This document shows, piece by piece, positions 28,704-48,388 of a DNA stretch of 64,000 nt. The DNA lies in the NCBI GenBank assembly GCA_016214855.1, contig JACRMT010000010.1, forward strand, positions 1-64,000, read 5' to 3'. The stretch comes from Nitrospirota bacterium (lineage in GTDB: Bacteria > Nitrospirota > Thermodesulfovibrionia > Thermodesulfovibrionales > UBA6898). The notes below the pieces were generated by a model that was given only the letters and a program-made list of their open reading frames with translations, had not been told where the DNA came from and ran no database searches. The translations under genes were made by a program, and so were the position numbers. The number at the start of each line of letters is the position of its first letter. Position 1 is the first letter of the stretch.

Positions 28704-29972
28704 CTACGGATAGCCTAACGGGGAACTCAATGTTTTCAGGAAAGCTTCAATCTTTAACAGTTCTGCATTGGTAAGTGCCTGATGCCCGAGCTCCCTGCTT
28801 GAACTGCGCTGGTAGAAACTCAGGACTTCGGACAGGGTCTTCAGTTGGCCGGCATGCATATATGGCGGTCTCTCTGCGACATTCCGCAAGGTAGGCGTCT
28901 TGAACGCACCAACGTATTTAGTCTTGTTCGTGTCTATGAATCTCAGCTCCGAACATTCATCCGGTTTTGCATCACTGTATTTACCGAAACAGTTGAACTC
29001 GTCCGTCATAACCTTGATGATGCCGTCAGCCCTGCCTTTGTCCTTAACATTGCCAATGCCGATATCATGGAAACTGCTGTTCGTAAAGAGTGGGCCCGTG
29101 TGGCAGTTCGTGCATTTTGCCTTGCCGATGAAAAGCCTCAAACCTTCAACCGCATCTTTCTTCATGAGCTTATCTGCCGTTTCAAGTTCGTTCTTCACTA
29201 CTGCATCAACGTATTTATCAAAGGGCGCTGACTGGGGCAGGATCTGGGCCACAAAGGCAGCAATGGCCTTGCCGATATTCGCATAGATCCTGTTGACACT
29301 GTCCCTGTCCTGAGGTTTCATTGCCTGCCAGGCCTTCAGGGCAACGGGATTTCCTGTACCCGGGCTTGCCTTTGGCGGGCAGGTCTTATGATCTATTCGG
29401 GGGAGCTTGCCGAATATTTCTTCATATTCTTTTTTATACCTGTCTGCTATCAGATGCGCGCACATTGAACGGGTGAAGCCGTGCTCCACAGAGCTCTCGA
29501 TAGGCCCGATCGCCTGTGACCAGAGGCTGTCCTTTCTGCCATCCCAGAAGAACCATGCATTGTATGCATTACCGATCAGAGGCATGGTCCGTCTCGTGGT
29601 CGTGCCCATGCCTTTGGCAAGAGGAAGTTTATCAGTAAAGCTGTCCTCAGGAATATGACAGATTGCGCAGGAGACCTTGCCGTTAGCGCTGAACTTTTTA
29701 TCAAAGAAGAGTTTTTTGCCGAGCGCTATTGCCCTGGGATCGTCAGCATGCTTATTGGATGGGTCTTTTGGGATCGGCGGAAGGGAAGAAAGTGAAAGGG
29801 AGCGGAGAATTCTTAACTCTTCTCCGCTCCATGCATGAATCTCTTTCAGATCTTTATCTTCTGCTGATGCATTTGACGGAATGCCGAACATCAGCAAAAA
29901 CCCGGCGGCCAGCAATACACCGCAACAAATAGCCCTGAAAAAAGAGATATCAGATATCCTTTTCACAGGCAT
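28704..29972 (-). CDS. Dihaem cytochrome c peroxidase (MauG/CCP family)
   Basis: 422 residues, exported (signal peptide to about residue 37, ending SNASA). Two c-type haem motifs are present: CAICH (102-106) and CTNCH (287-291), with the spacing of the bacterial dihaem peroxidases, which reduce H2O2 in the periplasm using cytochrome c electrons; MauG-like relatives oxidise proteins instead. KFSANGKVSCAICHIPEDSFTD and the C-terminal FKTPTLRNVAERPPYMHAGQLKTL are family blocks. Its neighbours upstream on the same strand encode a Cys-rich periplasmic protein, a YtkA-like protein and an outer-membrane barrel, so a role in metal-linked redox chemistry is conceivable. Confidence 0.92.
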   Translation of the reverse strand: MPVKRISDISFFRAICCGVLLAAGFLLMFGIPSNASAEDKDLKEIHAWSGEELRILRSLSLSSLPPIPKDPSNKHADDPRAIALGKKLFFDKKFSANGKVSCAICHIPEDSFTDKLPLAKGMGTTTRRTMPLIGNAYNAWFFWDGRKDSLWSQAIGPIESSVEHGFTRSMCAHLIADRYKKEYEEIFGKLPRIDHKTCPPKASPGTGNPVALKAWQAMKPQDRDSVNRIYANIGKAIAAFVAQILPQSAPFDKYVDAVVKNELETADKLMKKDAVEGLRLFIGKAKCTNCHTGPLFTNSSFHDIGIGNVKDKGRADGIIKVMTDEFNCFGKYSDAKPDECSELRFIDTNKTKYVGAFKTPTLRNVAERPPYMHAGQLKTLSEVLSFYQRSSSRELGHQALTNAELLKIEAFLKTLSSPLGYP

Positions 29973-29983
29973 TATCCGATGAT

Positions 29984-30841
29984 CTATTTCAGCTGGAGAT
30001 TAAAGGTAACGATATCGGTCTTTCCGCCTGCCTTGACCGTGAATGTCATGGTCCACCAGCCGGTCATGCTGAACTTGATGCCTTCAACAACATACGTGCC
30101 GTCGTTGTTATTCTTCACCTTGGGCTGTGTAGGCAACCCGTGACCATGCTCCGGCATATCGCCGGCTACCGTGATCTCAGCATCCTTCACTGCCTTTCCG
30201 TCAGCAGTCTCCACATTCAGCTTCCAGCTCATGAGCTTGTTCACAGGAACTGCATCAGACTCACTCGTATAGGAGGCCTTGAATGTTCCACTTTTTGACA
30301 GCATGGTCCTGGCATAGTCAGCATCTGCAGTCGGCGCTTTCACATCATCTGAAGCTGCGCCGGCAGCGGCGTCGGTCTTATAGTTGCAGCCTTTTCCGTG
30401 CTTTCCGTGTCTGGCTTTCATATTCTTGTGATCTGCATCACAGTGTCCGCAGTTACAGCCGTCTTTGCCGCCACCCTTGCAGGAGCATGTGCCCTTACCA
30501 CTCTTGCAGTGGTCACACTGACAGTTCTTACCGCACTGGCACCCGCCTTTGCTACCACCCTTGCAAAAGCATCCCTTTGCTCCGGCCTTGCACTGACACT
30601 CTCCCTTACCAGTCTTGCAATGTTCGCACTGGCAATCTTTTCCGCAGCTGCATCCGGTCTTACCGTCAGTCCTGCATGCGCAGTCGCCCTTGCCGGTCTT
30701 GCAGTGGTCACACTGGCAGTCCTTGCCGCACCCGCATTTCGCCGCGTTCTCCGCTGCTTGAACAGAATCAAAAACAGGCGCCCACGCCATGGATCCGAGA
30801 AATGCTACTGCGAGAAGAATTACTCCAATCTTTTTGATCAT
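29984..30841 (-). CDS. Exported Cys-rich (metallothionein-like) protein with YtkA-like domain
   Basis: 285 residues. A signal peptide (to about residue 30, VQAAENAA) is followed by 27 Cys between residues 36 and 152, arranged in repeats of the type C-x-C-G-K-D/N-C-Q-C-D/E-H-C-K-T/S-G-K-G (starting at 36, 64 and 101) with extra CxC pairs between. After His-rich RHGKHGKG the chain ends in a beta domain (about 185-285: SWKLNVETADGKAVKDAEITVAGDMPEHGHGLP, KFSMTGWWTMTFTVKAGG) of the YtkA-like family. The density of CxC motifs is that of metallothioneins, so tight binding of Cu, Zn or Cd in the periplasm is likely. I do not know a named family with this combination. It lies 11 bp upstream of the peroxidase gene. 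Confidence 0.85.
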   Translation of the reverse strand: MIKKIGVILLAVAFLGSMAWAPVFDSVQAAENAAKCGCGKDCQCDHCKTGKGDCACRTDGKTGCSCGKDCQCEHCKTGKGECQCKAGAKGCFCKGGSKGGCQCGKNCQCDHCKSGKGTCSCKGGGKDGCNCGHCDADHKNMKARHGKHGKGCNYKTDAAAGAASDDVKAPTADADYARTMLSKSGTFKASYTSESDAVPVNKLMSWKLNVETADGKAVKDAEITVAGDMPEHGHGLPTQPKVKNNNDGTYVVEGIKFSMTGWWTMTFTVKAGGKTDIVTFNLQLK

Positions 30842-30962
30842 ATGCTCTCTCCTTATAATATTTATACAAATAAATACATTAAATTTAAACGCATCTTAGA
30901 AGTCTCTATATTTTTGCCATGCATGGATGGTTATGGGCCCGAGGCCGACAACGTCAGCGCTC

Positions 30963-31439
30963 CTATTTTTTCCCCTTTATCGAATCAGGATCATACTTCC
31001 CTGCCTGCAACCTGTTGTTCAACACCTCAGGGAAGGTAAATACCACCCCATCTTCTATCTTCTTCTTTTTTACTGAGATGCTCAGTTTCCAGGTCCCCTC
31101 CTTAGGGAGTCCGGAATTCGGTACAAGATATAAGCCGCCGCCCTTTTCCTTCACCTTCAGCGGCTCGGCAATACCCGTTATCGTCACCGCGACCTTTGCA
31201 TCCTCAACATCCTCGTCATGGCTGTCATGGACAACGATACCGACCATGTCCTTGCCGATCTTATACTCCTTTTCATCAAGCAGCACCTCAATACTCACCT
31301 GCCCCTTTTCTGATATGGCAAAAAGCGTGTTGTTAAAATGCTTCGTAAATGAAGCACCCTTCTCATTGCTTCCCGCGTGCGCAGAGGCGACTACGAAAAA
31401 AGCAATAACCGCAATGCTCGCAACAACGATCCTTTTCAT
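30963..31439 (-). CDS. Exported YtkA-like domain protein
   Basis: About 158 residues: signal peptide (KRIVVASIAVIAFFVVASAHA) and one beta-sandwich domain with VSIEVLLDEKEYKIGKDMVGIVVHD, DAKVAVTITGI and EGTWKLSISVKKKK, similar in plan to the C-terminal part of the neighbouring Cys-rich protein. Related YtkA/FixH-type domains are found near copper and cytochrome-oxidase genes. ATG 31439 is preferred because AAGGGG stands six bases upstream; an ATG at 31457 overlaps the preceding stop but gives a poorer signal peptide. No Cys or Met-rich metal site is visible. Confidence 0.8.
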   Translation of the reverse strand: MKRIVVASIAVIAFFVVASAHAGSNEKGASFTKHFNNTLFAISEKGQVSIEVLLDEKEYKIGKDMVGIVVHDSHDEDVEDAKVAVTITGIAEPLKVKEKGGGLYLVPNSGLPKEGTWKLSISVKKKKIEDGVVFTFPEVLNNRLQAGKYDPDSIKGKK

Positions 31440-31453
31440 GATATCCCCTTTCA

Positions 31454-32419
31454 TCATAAGCTGAAGCTGGCACCGAAGAGCGCCTTGTATTTTGTGTCAT
31501 CCTGGATACCGTTCATGTCCTGAAGAAGCGGAATACCTATAGAAAGATAAGTGGAGAAGTTCTTGCCAAAGACAAGCCGCATCCCCGGAGAAAGAAATAA
31601 TGTATTACCGCCGCTGTTTGGATCTTTTTCTCCCCTGATCCTCTGTTTCCCTTTCCATTCCCCGTTTGCCTCGAGAATAAGATCCCATGCAATTGTCCCG
31701 CTCACTACGCGGTAGGAAAGCGCCGCATTATAATCGAACATATCCCCGAGATTGGTAAACTGCGTGCCGCGCGTAGCGAACGTATACTGGAGATTTCCGT
31801 CCAGAGAAACCTTGCCATATCTTTTCGTTGCCGCTATGCCGAGGATCGGATTCCATGATCCGGTGCCCGGCAGGAACTCAGCCTCAAATGTCTCACCTTG
31901 TATATCCCGATCGTTCGTCTTACCCGTCGGGATCTTGAGACCAAGGAACAGGGCAGATTCCAGATTATCAGGCGTCTTCAGAAAGCGGTACTGTCCCATC
32001 AGGGTAAGATCGCCGATCCCCTTTGCATTACCATGGAGATGGATCTCTCCCGGCTCATCGCCGTGAGCCTCGCGAATATTGTCGATCTTTTCGTAAGACA
32101 CCTTCATACTGACGGAAAGGTTGTCCGTTATCCCATACCCCATGCTCACGGTACTGTGAAACACCGATTCCGCAGTATGGGCATCCTTTCCCTGCATCGC
32201 AAATCCGAGCAGTTGGCTGTCAGAGAAACCATCAAGGTCAATGAACTCTGCCTGCGCAGCAAAGGACAACTTCCCCTGCGGCAGGGTTGTCGCTGATACC
32301 GTCCTGATCGGCCCTGTCTGGCCCAGGCCGGCTCCTCCCGAAGGATGATGAGCAAAGGCAGTCCCGGAAACCAGTACTATAATAACGACAGCAAAGATCA
32401 ACAGTTTACGAATATGCAT
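31454..32419 (-). CDS. Outer-membrane beta-barrel protein (MetA-type 'transporter')
   Basis: 321 residues with a signal peptide (ending GTAFA) and a mature N-terminus that begins HHPSGGAGLGQTGP, a His pair right after the predicted cleavage. The rest alternates hydrophobic and polar residues in about 12-14 strands (LSFAAQAEFIDL, NLSVSMKVSYEKI, DLTLMGQYRFL, SLDGNLQYTFATRG) and ends with a C-terminal Leu strand (ALFGASFSL), as outer-membrane barrels do. It resembles the phenol-degradation MetA-like group often annotated 'transporter'. First gene of the cluster with the YtkA-like, Cys-rich and peroxidase genes. Confidence 0.83.
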   Translation of the reverse strand: MHIRKLLIFAVVIIVLVSGTAFAHHPSGGAGLGQTGPIRTVSATTLPQGKLSFAAQAEFIDLDGFSDSQLLGFAMQGKDAHTAESVFHSTVSMGYGITDNLSVSMKVSYEKIDNIREAHGDEPGEIHLHGNAKGIGDLTLMGQYRFLKTPDNLESALFLGLKIPTGKTNDRDIQGETFEAEFLPGTGSWNPILGIAATKRYGKVSLDGNLQYTFATRGTQFTNLGDMFDYNAALSYRVVSGTIAWDLILEANGEWKGKQRIRGEKDPNSGGNTLFLSPGMRLVFGKNFSTYLSIGIPLLQDMNGIQDDTKYKALFGASFSL

Positions 32420-32540: not shown

Positions 32541-33683
32541 ATGCTGAACATACCTGTTCCTTATGAAAAACTTCTGCAGTTTCAGGAGAAGCTCGGTCTC
32601 AGCAATGAAGCACTCCTGAAGCTCAAGCCGTATCAGAAACTTTTCGCATCAAAAAAAGAGGAGTTCGCTGTTTATTTCAATGATGTTTTTCAGAGTCTCC
32701 CCGATGCTAAATTGGTCCTGGACTATCAGCAGAGCCCGGGCCATATGCTCAAGGTATGGGCCTTCTGGTTCGGAAAGGTCTTCAGCTCATCGCTCGATGC
32801 AGATCTCCTAGCCTATCTCTGGAAGATCGGTCTCCGCCATGTTGAGGTGAACCTTGACCAGAGGTTCTCAAACCTTGGGTTTTCTATCATCCGTCAGTTC
32901 TGCCACAAAACTCTGCTTTCCGACAGAAATGATGAGAACAGGACAGACATTCTGAAACTTATCGATATGATCATTGACTTCTGCCTTCTGGTCGAGACAA
33001 GCGCCTATATCGATGCAACCACCCGCTGTGACATAGAGATCATCAAAGGCATAGCGGACCGCGTCAGGAACCCGGTGACCGTCATAGGCGGCAGTATCAG
33101 GAGACTTCAAAAGACGGTCGAAACAGGCAGTCCTGTATACGGTGTTTATGACTCGGTGCTTCAGGAGAATAAGCGCCTCGAACATATGGTCTCTGACATC
33201 AAAATGTATTTTGAGATGTTCCAGCAAGACCCCGTATTCAGGACCCTCAGTATCAATGATATCATCAGCAAAACGATCGAAGAGCTGCAGATGCCCGGAT
33301 CCCGGATCAAAACTGATCTTTCTCCTGACGCAGTACTGATCCATGCTGATGCAAAGGACATTGGCTCTGCCTTCTATCACATTCTGCAGAACAGCTTTGA
33401 GGCGGCAGACCCCGATCATCCGGAGATAAGAATATCCTCCAGGCTGGTCAGCGAACCTCATCTCGCCGTAGAGATCCGCATATTCAATTCAGGGCAGCCT
33501 TTTAATGTAAGCGACGAGGAAAAACTGTCAACACCCTTCTATTCGACAAAACCGACAGGCACCGGGTTCGGCATACCGATCATCCGGCTCGCCATGAGAA
33601 AAAATCAGGGCAAGGCAACATTTGAGCCGGTGCAGGAAGACGGGACAAAGGTCACGTTGCTGCTGCCGCCGGCCGGCCCCTGA
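32541..33683 (+). CDS. Globin-sensor histidine kinase homologue lacking the phosphoacceptor His
   Basis: 380 residues, soluble. Residues 20-155 look like a protoglobin/globin-sensor domain, with proximal-type H100 in LWKIGLRHVEVNLDQRFS. The kinase part follows: the H box, normally HExRNPL, reads ADRVRNPVTVIGG, with D173 where the His should be (GAC at 33057-33059). The ATPase domain keeps the N box (ILQNSFEAAD) and a G2-like loop (TGTGFGIPIIRLA), while the G1 box is altered (IFNSGQPF). It may bind ATP without autophosphorylating and signal by contact. The ECF sigma factor gene starts 46 bp downstream, suggesting it regulates that system in response to O2 or NO. Confidence 0.85.
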   Translation: MLNIPVPYEKLLQFQEKLGLSNEALLKLKPYQKLFASKKEEFAVYFNDVFQSLPDAKLVLDYQQSPGHMLKVWAFWFGKVFSSSLDADLLAYLWKIGLRHVEVNLDQRFSNLGFSIIRQFCHKTLLSDRNDENRTDILKLIDMIIDFCLLVETSAYIDATTRCDIEIIKGIADRVRNPVTVIGGSIRRLQKTVETGSPVYGVYDSVLQENKRLEHMVSDIKMYFEMFQQDPVFRTLSINDIISKTIEELQMPGSRIKTDLSPDAVLIHADAKDIGSAFYHILQNSFEAADPDHPEIRISSRLVSEPHLAVEIRIFNSGQPFNVSDEEKLSTPFYSTKPTGTGFGIPIIRLAMRKNQGKATFEPVQEDGTKVTLLLPPAGP

Positions 33684-42006: not shown

Positions 42007-43554
42007 ATGGGCTCACGGAAGATACTCTCAGCCTGTCTGATGCTGGTTTCTGCTCTCTGTTCAGACGGCATCGGCAGCGCTGATGATAAGGGAACAAGAT
42101 CCGGGATCAGACTCAGCCCCCAGACGCAGGCCTGTGTAGGGTGTCACAGCAAGGTCACCCCCGGCATTGTGGAAGACTGGCTTTCCAGCAGACACTCGTT
42201 TACAACGCCTGAAGCGGCATTAAAGAAACCTGCGCTTGAGCGGAGGATCTCAGTTGCAACTCTGCCCGATGACCTCATGGCATTCGCAGTCGGCTGCTAC
42301 GAATGCCACAGCAGAAATCCGGAAAAGCACGCGGATAATTTTCAGCACATGGGATACCGGATAAATGTCGTTGTCTCCCCACATGACTGCAGCACCTGCC
42401 ATCCTGTGGAGGTGCTGCAGTATTCGGGAAGCAAAAAAGCACATGCATGGAAAAACATCATGTCAAACCCGGTCTATCATTCCCTCGTTTCAAGTATTGA
42501 CGGTCTCAAAACCGTGGAAAATGGAAAGATAGTCGCGCTGCCGCCATCACCCCAAACCCTCCAGGAAACCTGTCTCGGCTGCCACGGCACAAAGGTAGAA
42601 GTCAACGGCATGAAGAAGGTCTACAGCAACAGCGTGTGGGGAGAGATAGAAGTGCCGAATTTAACGAACTGGCCGAGTCAGGGAGTTGGCCGCGAAAACC
42701 CTGACGGGAGCATCGGTTCCTGCACATCATGCCATTCGCGTCATGCTTTCTCGATCAAAGAGGCACGCAAACCTTACAGCTGCGGCCAATGTCATCTCGA
42801 CCCTGATGTTCCGGCTTTCAATGTATATAAAGAAAGCAAGCATGGGTCCAGATACGACAGTCATGAAAATGAATGGAACTTTACCAATGTTCCCTGGGTG
42901 CTCGGCAGGGACTTTCAGGCCCCTACCTGTGCAACGTGTCACAACAGCCTGATCACCTCTCCTGACGGGACGGTCATCGCGGAACGGACGCATGACTTCG
43001 GCGCCCGCCTCTGGGTGCGGCTCTTTGGACTCATATATTCCCACCCGCAGCCCAAGGACGGCAATACCACGATCATCAGGAACAAGGACGGTCTTCCGCT
43101 GCCGACCACGTTTCTCAATGAGCCTGCGTCAGACTTTCTCATTAATAAGGCGGAACAGGAAAAACGATACGACACCATGAAAAATATCTGCAGGGGCTGC
43201 CACAGCACCCGATGGACCAATGACCACTTCGCAAAAATGGACAATACGATCAGGGAGACGAATGAGATGACGCTGTCAGCGACTAAACTCATGTCCGAGG
43301 CATGGGACAAAGGCATTGAAGACAGATCAAATCCCTTTGATGAACAGATCGAAAAACTCTGGATCAGACAGTGGCTTTTTTATTCGAACTCTGTCAGGTA
43401 TGCCTCTGCCATGACCGGCGCACCGGATTATGCAGCCTTCAAAAATGGATGGTGGGAGCTTTCCGAAAATCTCCAGAAGATGAGGGATATGATCGATCTT
43501 AAGGCCCGCCTGAAAACGATGCATTCGCTCCCTCAGCCGCAAAAAACTGATTAG
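42007..43554 (+). CDS. Octahaem cytochrome c of the hydroxylamine oxidoreductase family
   Basis: 515 residues, exported (signal peptide to about residue 24). Eight CxxCH motifs occur in order: CVGCH (43), CYECH, CSTCH, CLGCH, CTSCH, CGQCH, CATCH, CRGCH. The spacing and blocks such as YKESKHGSRYD, GRDFQAPTCATCHN and the C-terminal LFYSNSVRYASAMTGAPDYAAFKNGWW match the HAO/octahaem family. HAO members oxidise hydroxylamine (or hydrazine), whereas related forms reduce nitrite or NO. Whether the catalytic haem carries the Tyr cross-link of true HAO (a Tyr is present in APDYAAF) needs an alignment. It sits between the flavodiiron and radical SAM genes, spaced 20 and 10 bp. Confidence 0.87.
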   Translation: MGSRKILSACLMLVSALCSDGIGSADDKGTRSGIRLSPQTQACVGCHSKVTPGIVEDWLSSRHSFTTPEAALKKPALERRISVATLPDDLMAFAVGCYECHSRNPEKHADNFQHMGYRINVVVSPHDCSTCHPVEVLQYSGSKKAHAWKNIMSNPVYHSLVSSIDGLKTVENGKIVALPPSPQTLQETCLGCHGTKVEVNGMKKVYSNSVWGEIEVPNLTNWPSQGVGRENPDGSIGSCTSCHSRHAFSIKEARKPYSCGQCHLDPDVPAFNVYKESKHGSRYDSHENEWNFTNVPWVLGRDFQAPTCATCHNSLITSPDGTVIAERTHDFGARLWVRLFGLIYSHPQPKDGNTTIIRNKDGLPLPTTFLNEPASDFLINKAEQEKRYDTMKNICRGCHSTRWTNDHFAKMDNTIRETNEMTLSATKLMSEAWDKGIEDRSNPFDEQIEKLWIRQWLFYSNSVRYASAMTGAPDYAAFKNGWWELSENLQKMRDMIDLKARLKTMHSLPQPQKTD

Positions 43555-43564
43555 GAGGGAAGGG

Positions 43565-44554
43565 ATGACCTTCCCTCACCCGCGATTTCTCCAGCTTTAT
43601 CCCACGACTCGCTGCAACCAGAGCTGCTCCTTCTGCTTTAACGGTCCGGTCGGCCATCCCGGGGACCTGTCCCCTGAACATGCGCTGAACCTTCTCGATA
43701 TCATGCCGGGTCTCGGCATTTTTGACCTGGACATCATGGGCGGCGAGCCGTTCCTGCTGCCATGGATGCCGTCGTTCATTCACGCTGCGATCAAAGAAGG
43801 GATCATGGTAAATATCAGTACCAATGGGAGCTTCCCCGAGGTCATGGAAGCGTTCAGGGGATTAAACCCTGAGAAGATCAACATCGGCATTTCTCTTGAG
43901 GGAAGTTCTGCCCAAACACACCGCCGTCTTACCGATGCAGCCTATTACGAAAAGGCAGTTTCAAGCATCAGGTCACTTGTTGCGATGGGCCTGGATCCGA
44001 TTGTGAAAACCGTCGTGAACAGAACTACCATGCCGGACATCCCCTTAATTGCAGAACTGCTTAGTAAACTGGGGGTCAGGCGATATTATCTTATCCATAT
44101 GGATCTTCTCGCAGATGCGGTCAGCGCTCAGCATTCAGCGCTCAGCTACCCGGAATTCCTGAGCTTTTTTCAAGAGATCAAATCAGCCAACACTGGAATT
44201 GAGATTAACAGGGTAAACGCCTCATGCTTTGAAAAACAGACACTTCCAAAAGGAGTGCGCTGCGCCGGAGGAGTGAGAAAACTCTCAGTCATGCCCGATG
44301 GCTCTGTCTATCCCTGCAACCTGTTTCAGCACGTCCCGGCATTCGATCTCGGGAATATCTTTACTGATCCGTTTTCGGTAATATGGTCAAGTCCCCGTCT
44401 CGATCACTTCAGAACATTCGGAGAGAACAGCTGCGGGATAACGGCCTGCAAAAATCATGCATCCTGCACAGGCGGCTGCCCTGCTCATGGCATTCTTCAT
44501 GGTCAGGGACTGCAGGGCACGGACATTCGCTGCATGGAGAGGACTAATCTTTAG
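43565..44554 (+). CDS. Radical SAM/SPASM protein, possible maturase
   Basis: 329 residues. The SAM-binding [4Fe-4S] motif is CNQSCSFC near residue 18 (TTRCNQSCSFCFNGPVG); GGEP follows at DIMGGEPFLLP. The C-terminal third has Cys-rich SPASM-type clusters (RCAGG, SVYPCNLF, and CGITACKNHASCTGGCPAH). SPASM proteins usually modify peptides or proteins, for example by making thioether or C-C cross-links, or act in cofactor synthesis. A good ribosome binding site (GGAGGGAAGGG) lies before the ATG, 10 bp after the octahaem cytochrome stop; the neighbouring cytochrome is the most obvious candidate substrate, but this is inference. The stop lies at the start of the duplicated lpxL fragment. Confidence 0.9.
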   Translation: MTFPHPRFLQLYPTTRCNQSCSFCFNGPVGHPGDLSPEHALNLLDIMPGLGIFDLDIMGGEPFLLPWMPSFIHAAIKEGIMVNISTNGSFPEVMEAFRGLNPEKINIGISLEGSSAQTHRRLTDAAYYEKAVSSIRSLVAMGLDPIVKTVVNRTTMPDIPLIAELLSKLGVRRYYLIHMDLLADAVSAQHSALSYPEFLSFFQEIKSANTGIEINRVNASCFEKQTLPKGVRCAGGVRKLSVMPDGSVYPCNLFQHVPAFDLGNIFTDPFSVIWSSPRLDHFRTFGENSCGITACKNHASCTGGCPAHGILHGQGLQGTDIRCMERTNL

Positions 44555-44857: not shown

Positions 44858-47800
44858 ATGAACAAGGCAGCAGAGGTAATTATTAATCTCCTCGTCACCG
44901 TTGCATTCATTGCGTTCATATACTTCGGCTTGTATAGTCCGAGAATTACAGAAGCGGCATCGATGGGGCCGAAAAGTCCCAAAACCGCAGCAGGTGTCTG
45001 GACAAACCCAAACAATGCCTTGACGAGTGATACTGCCTACGCAACCTACAATCTCACTGAAGGGGCAAATCTAACACTTTCGAAATATGTATTTACCATT
45101 CCTGCCGCTTCAAAAATCGATGGCATTGAAGTATCCGTAAAGGGTTTTGGCAGTAATGCGGCGAACAGGACAATAGCGGTTTCCCTTACAAAAAATGGAA
45201 CTGCCGCAGGTACGGCAAAGACTCAGCTGCTGACTGGTACAGATGCCACCTACACATTAGGAACAGCCTCAGATCTATGGGGAGCCACGTGGCTGAACAC
45301 CGAGATAAACTCTGAGACTTTTGGTGTTATGCTTAGAGACCCCGATGCCACGGCAAGTGGTTTCAACATTGATCATGTATCTGTAACCGTTACCTATACT
45401 CCAAATGAGCCAATGATGCACAACTCTGCCAGCATTGGCTCTGGAAAGTGGGGAGCAGACGGCTGGGGTATTGCAGGCGGCAAATATGGTGAGTTTGTAT
45501 GCGAGACCTGCCACACCAGGAATACGCCAAACATTAAGAGGGTGAATACATCCGTGGCTGCACCTGATCCGGCTCCTTCAAACTTCCCGGGAACCGGTCA
45601 GGCAATAGTTTTTAACATTACAAGCAATGGCGCGTCTGATTTCGGTGATGACTCTTCAGCACATGCTACCTCAACCAAAATCTGCGAGGTCTGTCATACG
45701 TATGACGCAGGCTCTGCAAATGGAGTTAAATACCACGCTTACGATATGTCAGCAGACTTAGCAGATAGGACCCATAACAACAATACGGATTGCATGACCT
45801 GCCACTGGCATGCACAGGGCTTCAAGCCATCCTGTAGAGTATGCCACGGGTTCCCTCCCATTGACTCTGAGACAATGGTATCAAACCCGTCGTCAACAGG
45901 ATCTGCTACTGCAGGTGCACATGCCAAACATGCGTCATCTTCCGGGATGAGCTATTCCTGCGACACGTGTCACTTCAGCGGCATGCCGGCAACTCCCATC
46001 AACGGCAATAACAGGATACAGATCGGCTTTAATGTTTTCGGCACAGGCGGGGGCTCGTATGACGGTCAAGCCCTCATAAACGGTTTTGTCTATGAAGGGA
46101 AAAACAGCACAACCATAACCACAGGCGGATCAAAGACCTGCTCAGGTATCTACTGCCATGGCTCGACCATGACATCCAACAACGGAACTAATTTGACTCC
46201 GGTGTGGGACAACCCTGCAACGGCTGCATGCGGAACCTGCCATGGCGCTACTGCGGCAAATCCACCACTCAGGGGCAGCCACAGGACACATACGATGAAT
46301 GATACCTGGTGGCATGCTCCCAATACCGACCCTCCCTTTAACAATTACATCTACGGCAGGAACATTGCATGCACGGTATGTCACAACAATTACCCGTCCA
46401 GTCATGTAAATGGAAAAACCGACTGGTCCTTCGATGTTTCAACGTATCCAATGCTTTCCGGAGCTGAATACATGGGAGGTTCAAGCGGTTCATCGAATCC
46501 TGTTCCGGTCACCTACGGCCAATGTGCCAATCTGTACTGCCACAGCATTGTCCAGACGAGCACTGGAGGGCCGCTGACAGGTCTCGCCGGGGAATATAAA
46601 GCGCCGACCTGGGGCAATCTGGATGAAGGCACATGCGGTACGTGCCATTACGCTGATGCCGGACATTCATACTGGGCAGATAAAGGCATGAGTGCTATTG
46701 AGATAAGCTCAGGAAGCCATACAAAACATCTCGATAACCTTACGTATACTGTAGGCGGGGGATCAAAGGGGCCGGGCAGGTGTGCTGCCTGCCATAACTA
46801 TGTCGGATCAGACAACCTTCTGGGCTGCGCATCAGTCTGTCACAATAGCGGCAACCTTCATGTCAACTATCAGATTGATGTGAAGTTTCCGCCGACAAAG
46901 TACGGCAGCAGCGCTTCTTATACCGGCACGCCCGATCCGGGCAATGGCTATGGAAACTGCTCAAATACCTACTGCCACGGCAATGGGACATCTGTATCGA
47001 CCAGCACAATCCCGGGCAGCTCTTCACCAGACTGGGGTGCTGCCGGGCCGCTCGCCTGCAACTCATGCCATGCTTACCCGCCTGCTTATTCAAATGGTTC
47101 TCCAAAGGCAAACAGCCATGTCAGGCATGGTCATATATCATGCGAAAAATGTCATTGGGCAACGACACAGGCGAGCAGTACGATAAACGACTATTCGAGG
47201 CATGTAAATCAACAGTATGATATCGGCAACAGTACAGGCACCATCACATATACTTTTAGTATGGGGGGAGGATCCTGCAGCGGGACATTCGCCTGTCATG
47301 GCAATGCGACCTGGGGAACTTCAATCACGCCGCCAAACTACGCAAACTGTCTTTCCTGCCATAAGACAGCAATGGGCAGCAGAAGGCAGATCGTCGATAG
47401 TAACGGTGACGGTTCAGGGAGCGGCGGAGATTTTAAAAAGATCTCACATCACCACTATCCGGCCAGCGGTACGATTACCAACGCCGACTGCCAGGTATGC
47501 CACGACACATCCCTTCACCCGGGTGGAAACATCCGGCTGAAGAATGCGGATACAGGAGAAGTATATATATACAGCGCGGCCAGTCCTTCAACGGCTGAGG
47601 ACCACTGCCTGAGTTGCCATGACGCCGATGGGGCCGGCGGCAACATGATTCCCTTCTCTGACGGGAAGGTCCTCGGTCAAACCACCTATCGAAGCAGTAT
47701 TGATATAAAGAGCAACTGGGACAAAAATTACGGACACCGGCAAAAGGGTCTTACATGCCTTGGCGATGGCACTCCGAATACAGGATGCCACGTTAGTGGA

Positions 47801-48388
47801 CACGGCTCGGACTATAAGGGGCTCTTGAGCAAAAACCTGACTCTCCCCAATCCATCTACCGCATATTATAGTGCAGCGGACGAAGGTTCGTATGATATCT
47901 GCTTCAATTGCCATCAAAACTATCCCCGGGTGACAAAGGAAGCCATTTTAGGATACAGGCTCGGCGGTAATTATGACTTAAACGGTGAGGGTCCGCCGCC
48001 CTACAACCTTCCGAATATCCTGACATTATTCAGGGACAGGAATGGACAAGGCACCGGAAATCCCTATGACAACCCTCTTTTCTGGACGAACTTATATACC
48101 AATCTCCATTACTTTCACGTGCAAAGTGGTGGGTGGTCTTACAGGGGAGCAACAAGCTCATCCATGAACTGCATAGCCTGCCATAACGTTCATGGTTCGA
48201 ATACAGCGTCAGGATGGACTTACGATGAGATGCAGTATAATCGTTATACGGGCACAGGCAGTGACCAATACGGAACTATGGACGCCGCAACCTATACGAT
48301 TCTCAATAATTATCCGACTAATTGCACTTTCAACTGTCATAGCCTGCAAGGGAAAACGCATAATTGGTTTGAGCCGCCAGGGGAGTAA
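44858..48388 (+). CDS. Giant multihaem c-type cytochrome (Geobacter-type C-x4-CH repeats)
   Basis: 1176 residues. An N-terminal membrane/signal segment (EVIINLLVTVAFIAFIYFG) precedes a beta-sandwich domain (about 45-182) without Cys. From C215 to the end I count 16 CxxCH motifs plus seven atypical ones: three C-x4-CH (CSGIYCH, CANLYCH, CSNTYCH), two C-x3-CH (CASVCH, CTFNCH), one C-x5-CH (CSGTFACH) and one C-x10-CH (CLGDGTPNTGCH), up to 23 haems. The alternation of C-x4-CH with CxxCH a short distance on is the 'CxxxxCH...CxxCH' repeat of Geobacter OmcB-like and related cytochromes. An extracellular or cell-surface electron-transfer role is likely. It is flanked by 100-bp direct repeats (44558, 48416). 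Confidence 0.92.
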   Translation: MNKAAEVIINLLVTVAFIAFIYFGLYSPRITEAASMGPKSPKTAAGVWTNPNNALTSDTAYATYNLTEGANLTLSKYVFTIPAASKIDGIEVSVKGFGSNAANRTIAVSLTKNGTAAGTAKTQLLTGTDATYTLGTASDLWGATWLNTEINSETFGVMLRDPDATASGFNIDHVSVTVTYTPNEPMMHNSASIGSGKWGADGWGIAGGKYGEFVCETCHTRNTPNIKRVNTSVAAPDPAPSNFPGTGQAIVFNITSNGASDFGDDSSAHATSTKICEVCHTYDAGSANGVKYHAYDMSADLADRTHNNNTDCMTCHWHAQGFKPSCRVCHGFPPIDSETMVSNPSSTGSATAGAHAKHASSSGMSYSCDTCHFSGMPATPINGNNRIQIGFNVFGTGGGSYDGQALINGFVYEGKNSTTITTGGSKTCSGIYCHGSTMTSNNGTNLTPVWDNPATAACGTCHGATAANPPLRGSHRTHTMNDTWWHAPNTDPPFNNYIYGRNIACTVCHNNYPSSHVNGKTDWSFDVSTYPMLSGAEYMGGSSGSSNPVPVTYGQCANLYCHSIVQTSTGGPLTGLAGEYKAPTWGNLDEGTCGTCHYADAGHSYWADKGMSAIEISSGSHTKHLDNLTYTVGGGSKGPGRCAACHNYVGSDNLLGCASVCHNSGNLHVNYQIDVKFPPTKYGSSASYTGTPDPGNGYGNCSNTYCHGNGTSVSTSTIPGSSSPDWGAAGPLACNSCHAYPPAYSNGSPKANSHVRHGHISCEKCHWATTQASSTINDYSRHVNQQYDIGNSTGTITYTFSMGGGSCSGTFACHGNATWGTSITPPNYANCLSCHKTAMGSRRQIVDSNGDGSGSGGDFKKISHHHYPASGTITNADCQVCHDTSLHPGGNIRLKNADTGEVYIYSAASPSTAEDHCLSCHDADGAGGNMIPFSDGKVLGQTTYRSSIDIKSNWDKNYGHRQKGLTCLGDGTPNTGCHVSGHGSDYKGLLSKNLTLPNPSTAYYSAADEGSYDICFNCHQNYPRVTKEAILGYRLGGNYDLNGEGPPPYNLPNILTLFRDRNGQGTGNPYDNPLFWTNLYTNLHYFHVQSGGWSYRGATSSSMNCIACHNVHGSNTASGWTYDEMQYNRYTGTGSDQYGTMDAATYTILNNYPTNCTFNCHSLQGKTHNWFEPPGE

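Follow-up and report, generated by a model that had tools for sequence, protein, structure and literature searches.

MauG, the di-haem enzyme of tryptophan tryptophylquinone (TTQ) maturation in methylamine dehydrogenase, has relatives that are encoded next to copper proteins. CorA of Methylomicrobium album (with CorB) and MopE of Methylococcus capsulatus (with SACCP) bind Cu(I) through two His residues and a Trp-derived kynurenine, and the MauG-like di-haem protein that is co-transcribed with each is suspected of making the kynurenine (PMC3912023). Another widespread two-gene pair, MbnP/MbnH (TIGR04052/TIGR04039), consists of a partner protein with conserved Trp residues and a MauG-like di-haem enzyme (PMC3621798). 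We examined a locus that shares this two-gene logic in a 64,000-nucleotide stretch of a Nitrospirota bacterium (contig JACRMT010000010.1, positions 1 to 64,000; hereafter the window). Among four minus-strand genes at 28704-32419, one encodes a Cys-rich protein that ends in a YtkA-like domain (Y2), and the next encodes a di-haem enzyme. The combination of a MauG-like enzyme with a copper protein is of a known kind; what is new here is the YtkA/CrdA-type partner and the predicted exported Cys array fused to it. The Y2/di-haem pair is apparently a widespread, so far undescribed two-gene module, as the literature on YtkA or FixH with MauG and on periplasmic metallothioneins, which was covered in part, held no description of it. 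The features of the pair are listed below, with coordinates in the window and the basis of each assignment in brackets.

29984-30841, minus strand: gene for the Cys array plus Y2 (YtkA) protein, 285 aa with 27 Cys (open reading frame (ORF); Pfam YtkA, E 5.8e-14; Cys count)
29987-30316, minus strand: YtkA-like Y2 domain, residues 176-285, with a predicted CrdA fold (AlphaFold2 (AF2) model, pLDDT 91; CrdA, Z 13.6; profile match to CrdA, E 2.2e-4)
30224-30226, minus strand: Trp206, the prime modification candidate (present in partnered Y2, absent from solo YtkA and Y1 domains)
30128-30157, minus strand: putative metal motif M229-P-E-H232-G-H234-G-L-P-T (alignments)
30053-30076, minus strand: motif K256-F-S-M259-T-G-W262-W263 (alignments)
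28704-29972, minus strand: gene for the di-haem enzyme, 422 aa with two CxxCH (ORF; CCP_MauG, E 1.9e-36; match to MauG, Z 28.2; active-site residues)
29655-29669, minus strand: haem c motif 1, C102-x-x-C105-H106 (sequence)
29100-29114, minus strand: haem c motif 2, C287-x-x-C290-H291 (sequence)
28812-28814, minus strand: Tyr387, equivalent of the MauG axial ligand Tyr294 (alignment; 62/62 relatives)

The distribution of the pair was examined by scanning one genome per species, which resulted in 367 loci; 80 of them were retained. These 80 loci span Nitrospirota, Chloroflexota, Desulfobacterota, Gemmatimonadota, and alpha-, beta-, and gammaproteobacteria, and in about 76 of them (~95%) the enzyme is encoded within 700 bp downstream of Y2 and on the same strand; in L094, the distance is 2.7 kb. 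The enzyme also adjoins all five plasmid homologues, which were found by tblastn and not by the search patterns. In a set of 197 evenly sampled genomes of the Nitrospirota phylum (thresholds of E<1e-40 for Y2 and E<1e-60 for the enzyme), Y2 and the enzyme were identified in exactly the same seven genomes, representing five genera; in one of the seven (G009), the two lie on different contigs. YtkA domains in general are present in 54 of 118 genomes, the enzyme is absent from genomes that have solo YtkA alone, and none of 30 solo YtkA loci, with roughly 1.5 kb covered on each side, has the enzyme beside it. In more distant genomes of the group, the enzyme follows a fused Y1-Y2 tandem of YtkA domains that has no Cys array. 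Y2 and the di-haem enzyme, the constant neighbours in relatives, form the conserved core; neither the cluster of four genes nor the Cys array does. As a separate observation, on the Polaromonas plasmid pPNAP03 (L052, 5539-6375) the ORF that immediately precedes the di-haem gene encodes both a DUF3703 domain and a lipoprotein-like Y2 domain, which may be a true fusion or the result of a missed start.

The Cys-array protein scores 53 bits against PF13115 (YtkA) over residues 200-266, above the gathering score of 25.9, and matches no NCBIfam model. Its Y2 domain is confidently modelled with a CrdA fold. The best structural match is CrdA of H. pylori (1.9 A over 100 residues, 23% identity), with the next match far behind at a Z of 9.7, and CrdA is the sole match when PDB sequences are searched with a Y2 profile. 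The link to copper that a first-pass annotation of the window had attached to the YtkA domain is supported by this model, as CrdA is a copper resistance protein of the periplasm whose site is rich in Met and has no His (PMC9182242). M229, M259, and Trp263 have equivalents in CrdA. The MPxMPGM site of CrdA is not reproduced in Y2, where M229 and M259 are kept but His232 and His234 stand in place of Met/Pro or a gap, and Y2 further differs from CrdA in its two extra Trp residues and its di-haem partner.

The residues that set Y2 apart follow the enzyme. Trp206 is present in 78 and Trp262 in 72 of the 80 partnered Y2 domains, with mostly Phe or Tyr at these positions in the remainder, and in solo YtkA domains Trp206, Trp262, His232, and His234 were each found in 0 of 29. 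Met229, Met259, and Trp263 are common to solo YtkA domains and Y2. An internal control is provided by the Y1 domains within the same polypeptides, which carry MPxMxHG and neither Trp. The presence of M229, H232, H234, M259, and W263 in 80/80 domains was imposed by the regular expression used for the search, and these residues were rechecked without this filter. The signature is not just an artefact of the search, because loci that were matched by only one of the two patterns retain nearly all residues of the other.

The enzyme scores 126.4 bits against PF03150 (CCP_MauG; cut-off 25.6) and has two CxxCH motifs, in agreement with the first-pass annotation of a dihaem peroxidase as far as the haems are concerned; the plain peroxidase label gave way to a MauG-type assignment based on the predicted Tyr ligand. 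Tyr387 aligns with Y294 of MauG and would provide Tyr instead of Met as the axial ligand of the second haem in all 62 relatives. W143, Q153, P157, and E163 correspond to Trp93, Gln103, Pro107, and Glu113 of MauG and are kept in 62/62 homologues, an equivalence read from the constant offset of 50 in the match to MauG. With the exception of Trp199, the residues compared indicate an enzyme of the MauG type. The structural model (pLDDT 88.5) matches the cytochrome c peroxidase (CCP) MacA (4aam, Z 30.6), MauG (33% identity over 275 residues, 2.1 A), and MbnH (6e1c, Z 28.1) similarly well.

Membership of the MauG or MbnP/MbnH families was considered and dropped, as the enzyme reaches 148.1 of the 443.85 bits required for the MauG equivalog TIGR03791 and 133.5 of the 362.85 bits required for the MbnH model TIGR04039, and its partner matches no NCBIfam model. 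The partner is also not methylamine dehydrogenase, the substrate of MauG. MbnH reportedly makes kynurenine in MbnP. The locus resembles CorA/CorB and MopE/SACCP in joining the gene for an exported copper protein, with export and copper predicted in this case, to one for a MauG-like di-haem protein, and differs from them in having a YtkA/CrdA-like partner, two additional conserved Met residues in the putative site, and a range far outside the methanotrophs. CorA, MopE, and MbnP were not among the matches of the fold search, an absence that is not taken as exclusion, and CorA and MopE were not among the sequence matches of Y2 either.

The N-terminal part of the Cys-Y2 protein contains the following features, with the basis again in brackets.

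30752-30841, minus strand: predicted Sec-type signal peptide, residues 1-30, MIKKIGVILLAVAFLGSMAWAPVFDSVQA (by eye from the sequence)
30386-30736, minus strand: Cys array, residues 36-152 (sequence)
30701-30736, minus strand: repeat unit 1, CGCGKDCQCDHC (sequence)
30617-30652, minus strand: repeat unit 2, CSCGKDCQCEHC (sequence)
30506-30541, minus strand: repeat unit 3, CQCGKNCQCDHC (sequence)

The first-pass annotation had described an exported, metallothionein-like protein with 27 Cys and three near-identical repeats fused to a YtkA domain, and the Cys count, the repeats, the Pfam match, and the signal-peptide-like N-terminus followed by a CxC/CxxC array all agree with it, with export as a prediction. 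Residues 36-134 contain 26 of the 27 Cys, the other being C152, and the three 12-residue C-x-C-G-K-x-C-Q-C-x-H-C units start at residues 36, 64, and 101. An origin of the array by chance or as a DNA-repeat artefact is ruled out, because six Cys, one Gly, and one His are kept in 34/34 units from nine homologous proteins although the codons drift (TGC/TGT, CAC/CAT), with synonymous differences outnumbering non-synonymous ones, and because no DNA-level tandem repeat was detectable. The composition of residues 36-152 is metallothionein-like (23% Cys, one aromatic). With plant EC metallothioneins the array shares dense CxC/CxxC motifs and few aromatics, but this likeness is weak (PF02068, 14.6 bits against a cut-off of 31.8, E 0.041; 2kak, E 0.78), and the predicted export and the fusion to a copper-type domain are points of difference; metallothionein models other than that of the plant EC family gave no match. 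Among the genomes searched, the array was found only in two genera of one family, with 15 to 36 Cys in total per homologue, and it is absent from a congener (G003). It is a lineage-specific, dispensable addition to the conserved pair, because this congener retains the signal peptide, the YtkA domain, and the enzyme without it.

Upstream of the pair, the locus contains two more genes.

31454-32419, minus strand: barrel-like gene (ORF)
30963-31457, minus strand: Y1 (YtkA-like) gene (ORF)

The ORFs of all four genes were confirmed on the minus strand where the first-pass annotation had placed them; its proposal that they form one system was abandoned for the barrel, which lies outside the conserved unit. 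The barrel and Y1 genes overlap by 4 nt, a 121-bp AT-rich gap separates Y1 from the Cys-Y2 gene, and the latter is 11 bp from the di-haem gene. A scan for sigma-70 promoters and terminators returned fewer sites than were found in shuffled sequences. The barrel gene encodes a protein like an outer-membrane barrel with HHPSGG at its mature N-terminus, and it stands beside the pair in just two genomes, the window genome and the relative G003, for which reason a four-gene operon was dropped as the functional unit. Conservation of the Cys-YtkA gene with its neighbours fails for the barrel and holds for the di-haem enzyme, and "cluster" is a loose term for four genes with a gap after Y1 and a barrel that rarely adjoins the others. 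The window Y1, a separate gene, corresponds to the N-terminal half of the fused Y1-Y2 proteins found elsewhere; it scores 22.6 bits against Pfam YtkA (E 1.8e-4), under the cut-off of 25.9, and has lost the MPxMGHG motif of the fused Y1 domains. Divergent from the barrel gene, the gene at 32541-33683 encodes a histidine kinase that begins with a protoglobin domain (PF11563, E 1.9e-9) and is a candidate haem-based gas sensor.

Two further Cys-YtkA genes are present in the genome. The copy on C4 lies beside an intact di-haem gene, directly downstream of which an exported protein with a YHS domain is encoded (L039, G000:C4, 5328-5846). The copy on C18 (L038, G000:C18, 213-6811) lies beside a truncated di-haem gene and is flanked on one side by a two-component system and on the other by an ExtJ-like exported protein rich in Cys; its neighbours include MsrA, MsrB, and a YHS-domain protein. 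A second exported Cys-rich family of about 120-136 aa (of the YVCNCGDKCPCDSMSRNAGQCTCGKDM type) recurs at L008, L034, and L038 (6431-6811), and one member bears a weak resemblance to the ExtJ protein of selenite/tellurite operons. In a more distant genome (G160; L146, 2376-5059), an ExtJ-like Cys-rich exported protein, the di-haem enzyme, and a fused Y1-Y2 protein are encoded in this order; this is a distinct case of a Cys-rich exported protein accompanying the pair, and the gene order is swapped. Regarding copper, the window genome encodes four copper P-type ATPases above the curated cut-off. CopC and a CopD-like protein, the latter under its Pfam cut-off, are encoded near the pair in G002, as are a CopC-CopD fusion in L103 and SCO1 in L139. 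Multicopper oxidases account for 4 of 90 neighbouring ORFs of relatives, a tally without a matched control that serves as context only. Elsewhere in the window, the gene at 42007-43554 encodes an eight-haem c-type cytochrome (eight CxxCH) and is followed by one for a radical-SAM-like protein at 43565-44554, and a 1176-aa protein encoded at 44858-48388, with 16 CxxCH and five longer-spaced haem-like motifs (CxxxCH, CxxxxCH), is a candidate large multihaem cytochrome.

We give an even chance to a two-protein copper module in which the MauG-type enzyme oxidises a Trp of Y2 and thereby completes a copper site, with a metallothionein-like array added in one lineage. The enzyme would be periplasmic and would have the YtkA/CrdA-fold domain of the neighbouring protein as its target, with H2O2, or O2 and a reductant, as oxidant. 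By analogy with the known pairs, its function may be the oxidation of Trp206, possibly together with Trp262, probably to kynurenine or a relative, and the metal bound would be copper. Trp oxidation and copper are proposed because the extra Trps and the His pair occur with the enzyme and not in the solo YtkA domains examined. The array of CxCGKxCxCxHC units would have been inserted between the signal peptide and Y2 in this genus and one sister genus, where it may bind several Cu(I) (or other soft metal) ions and feed or buffer the modified site; the simplest view is of a Cu(I)-thiolate buffer joined to that site. More tentatively, with a probability just under even, the pair could stand for one more class of copper proteins that depend on a maturase, evolved independently and widespread across several phyla. 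In this class, a CrdA-like Met site would have become a His/Met site with an enzymatically oxidised Trp, and in one Nitrospirota lineage the array would have been added as a multi-copper buffer on the same polypeptide.

Several observations weigh against Trp oxidation by the enzyme. Three of the 80 loci (L068, L080, and L088) have no enzyme nearby, although for L068 (genome G009) it is kept on a different contig, and the C18 copy in the window genome retains its Cys-Y2 protein though its enzyme is truncated to 115 aa. Trp199, the surface residue of MauG involved in hole hopping, lies two residues before the second haem motif, where the enzyme has Ala285. The search patterns themselves dictated part of the putative metal residues, even if loci matched by one pattern keep those of the other; the closeness of Trp206 and Trp262 to M229, H232, H234, and M259 is assumed; and copper is suggested as the metal of the array by context. 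In addition, the Tyr ligand is no proof of protein modification, because BthA has the same Tyr-His ligation and yet reduces H2O2 as a peroxidase (PMC6405878). If the di-haem protein were likewise an ordinary H2O2 peroxidase, Y2 would be a copper chaperone or electron donor, the two genes would stay together because copper stress and peroxide stress coincide, and the Trps would be structural or part of an electron path. The top structural matches by Z are CCPs such as MacA, ahead of MauG and MbnH, the C18 copy is near MsrA, MsrB, and a two-component system, and bacterial CCPs accept electrons from small copper proteins. Nevertheless, we consider this explanation unlikely: the classical CCP Met is replaced by Tyr in 62/62 relatives, an exclusive partner with two specific Trps, missing from the solo YtkA domains examined, would be superfluous for a peroxidase, and Y2 and the enzyme co-occur one-to-one in the sample.

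The remaining alternatives concern the array and the copper centre served. The first-pass annotation had proposed periplasmic metal sequestration or delivery, in which the array would be the working part, an exported metallothionein for Cu, Zn, Cd, or Hg, with YtkA for anchoring or delivery and the enzyme incidental. The invariant Cys, Gly, and His of the units, the weak plant EC likeness, and the ExtJ-like proteins next to the C18 and G160 copies are in its favour, but the restriction of the array to two genera among the genomes searched, its absence from G003, and the spread of the array-less pair over several phyla make it improbable; the metal link stands, and the conservation of the enzyme with the YtkA unit suggests protein modification rather than simple sequestration. 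That the Cys form periplasmic disulphides, as a rigid spacer or redox sink, is consistent with the predicted export and with the one DsbA-like protein encoded in the genome, but is very improbable given Cys totals that vary and can be odd (27, 21, 15, 35), the prevailing CxC spacing, and an invariant His between the last two Cys of the unit that suits a metal. Assembly of the CuA centre of a haem-copper oxidase has a precedent in YtkA/CtaK of Bacillus subtilis, which supports cytochrome caa3 function, probably through CuA assembly (PMC13344008). This role is disfavoured, and the least probable of those considered, as no COX2/CuA gene was found in the window genome, G002, G038, or G169, all of which carry the pair.

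Few MauG-like enzymes have known protein substrates, and the small number of proteins known to have kynurenine-associated copper sites come mostly from methanotrophs. Because the pair occurs in many phyla and its proposed substrate domain and candidate Trps can be named, it offers a direct test of the generality of this chemistry. As an exported metallothionein, the fused Cys array would be out of the ordinary; its lineage has four copper ATPases, and no CuA oxidase was found in it. A function could also be assigned to proteins whose annotation goes no further than "FixH family protein" or "cytochrome c peroxidase".

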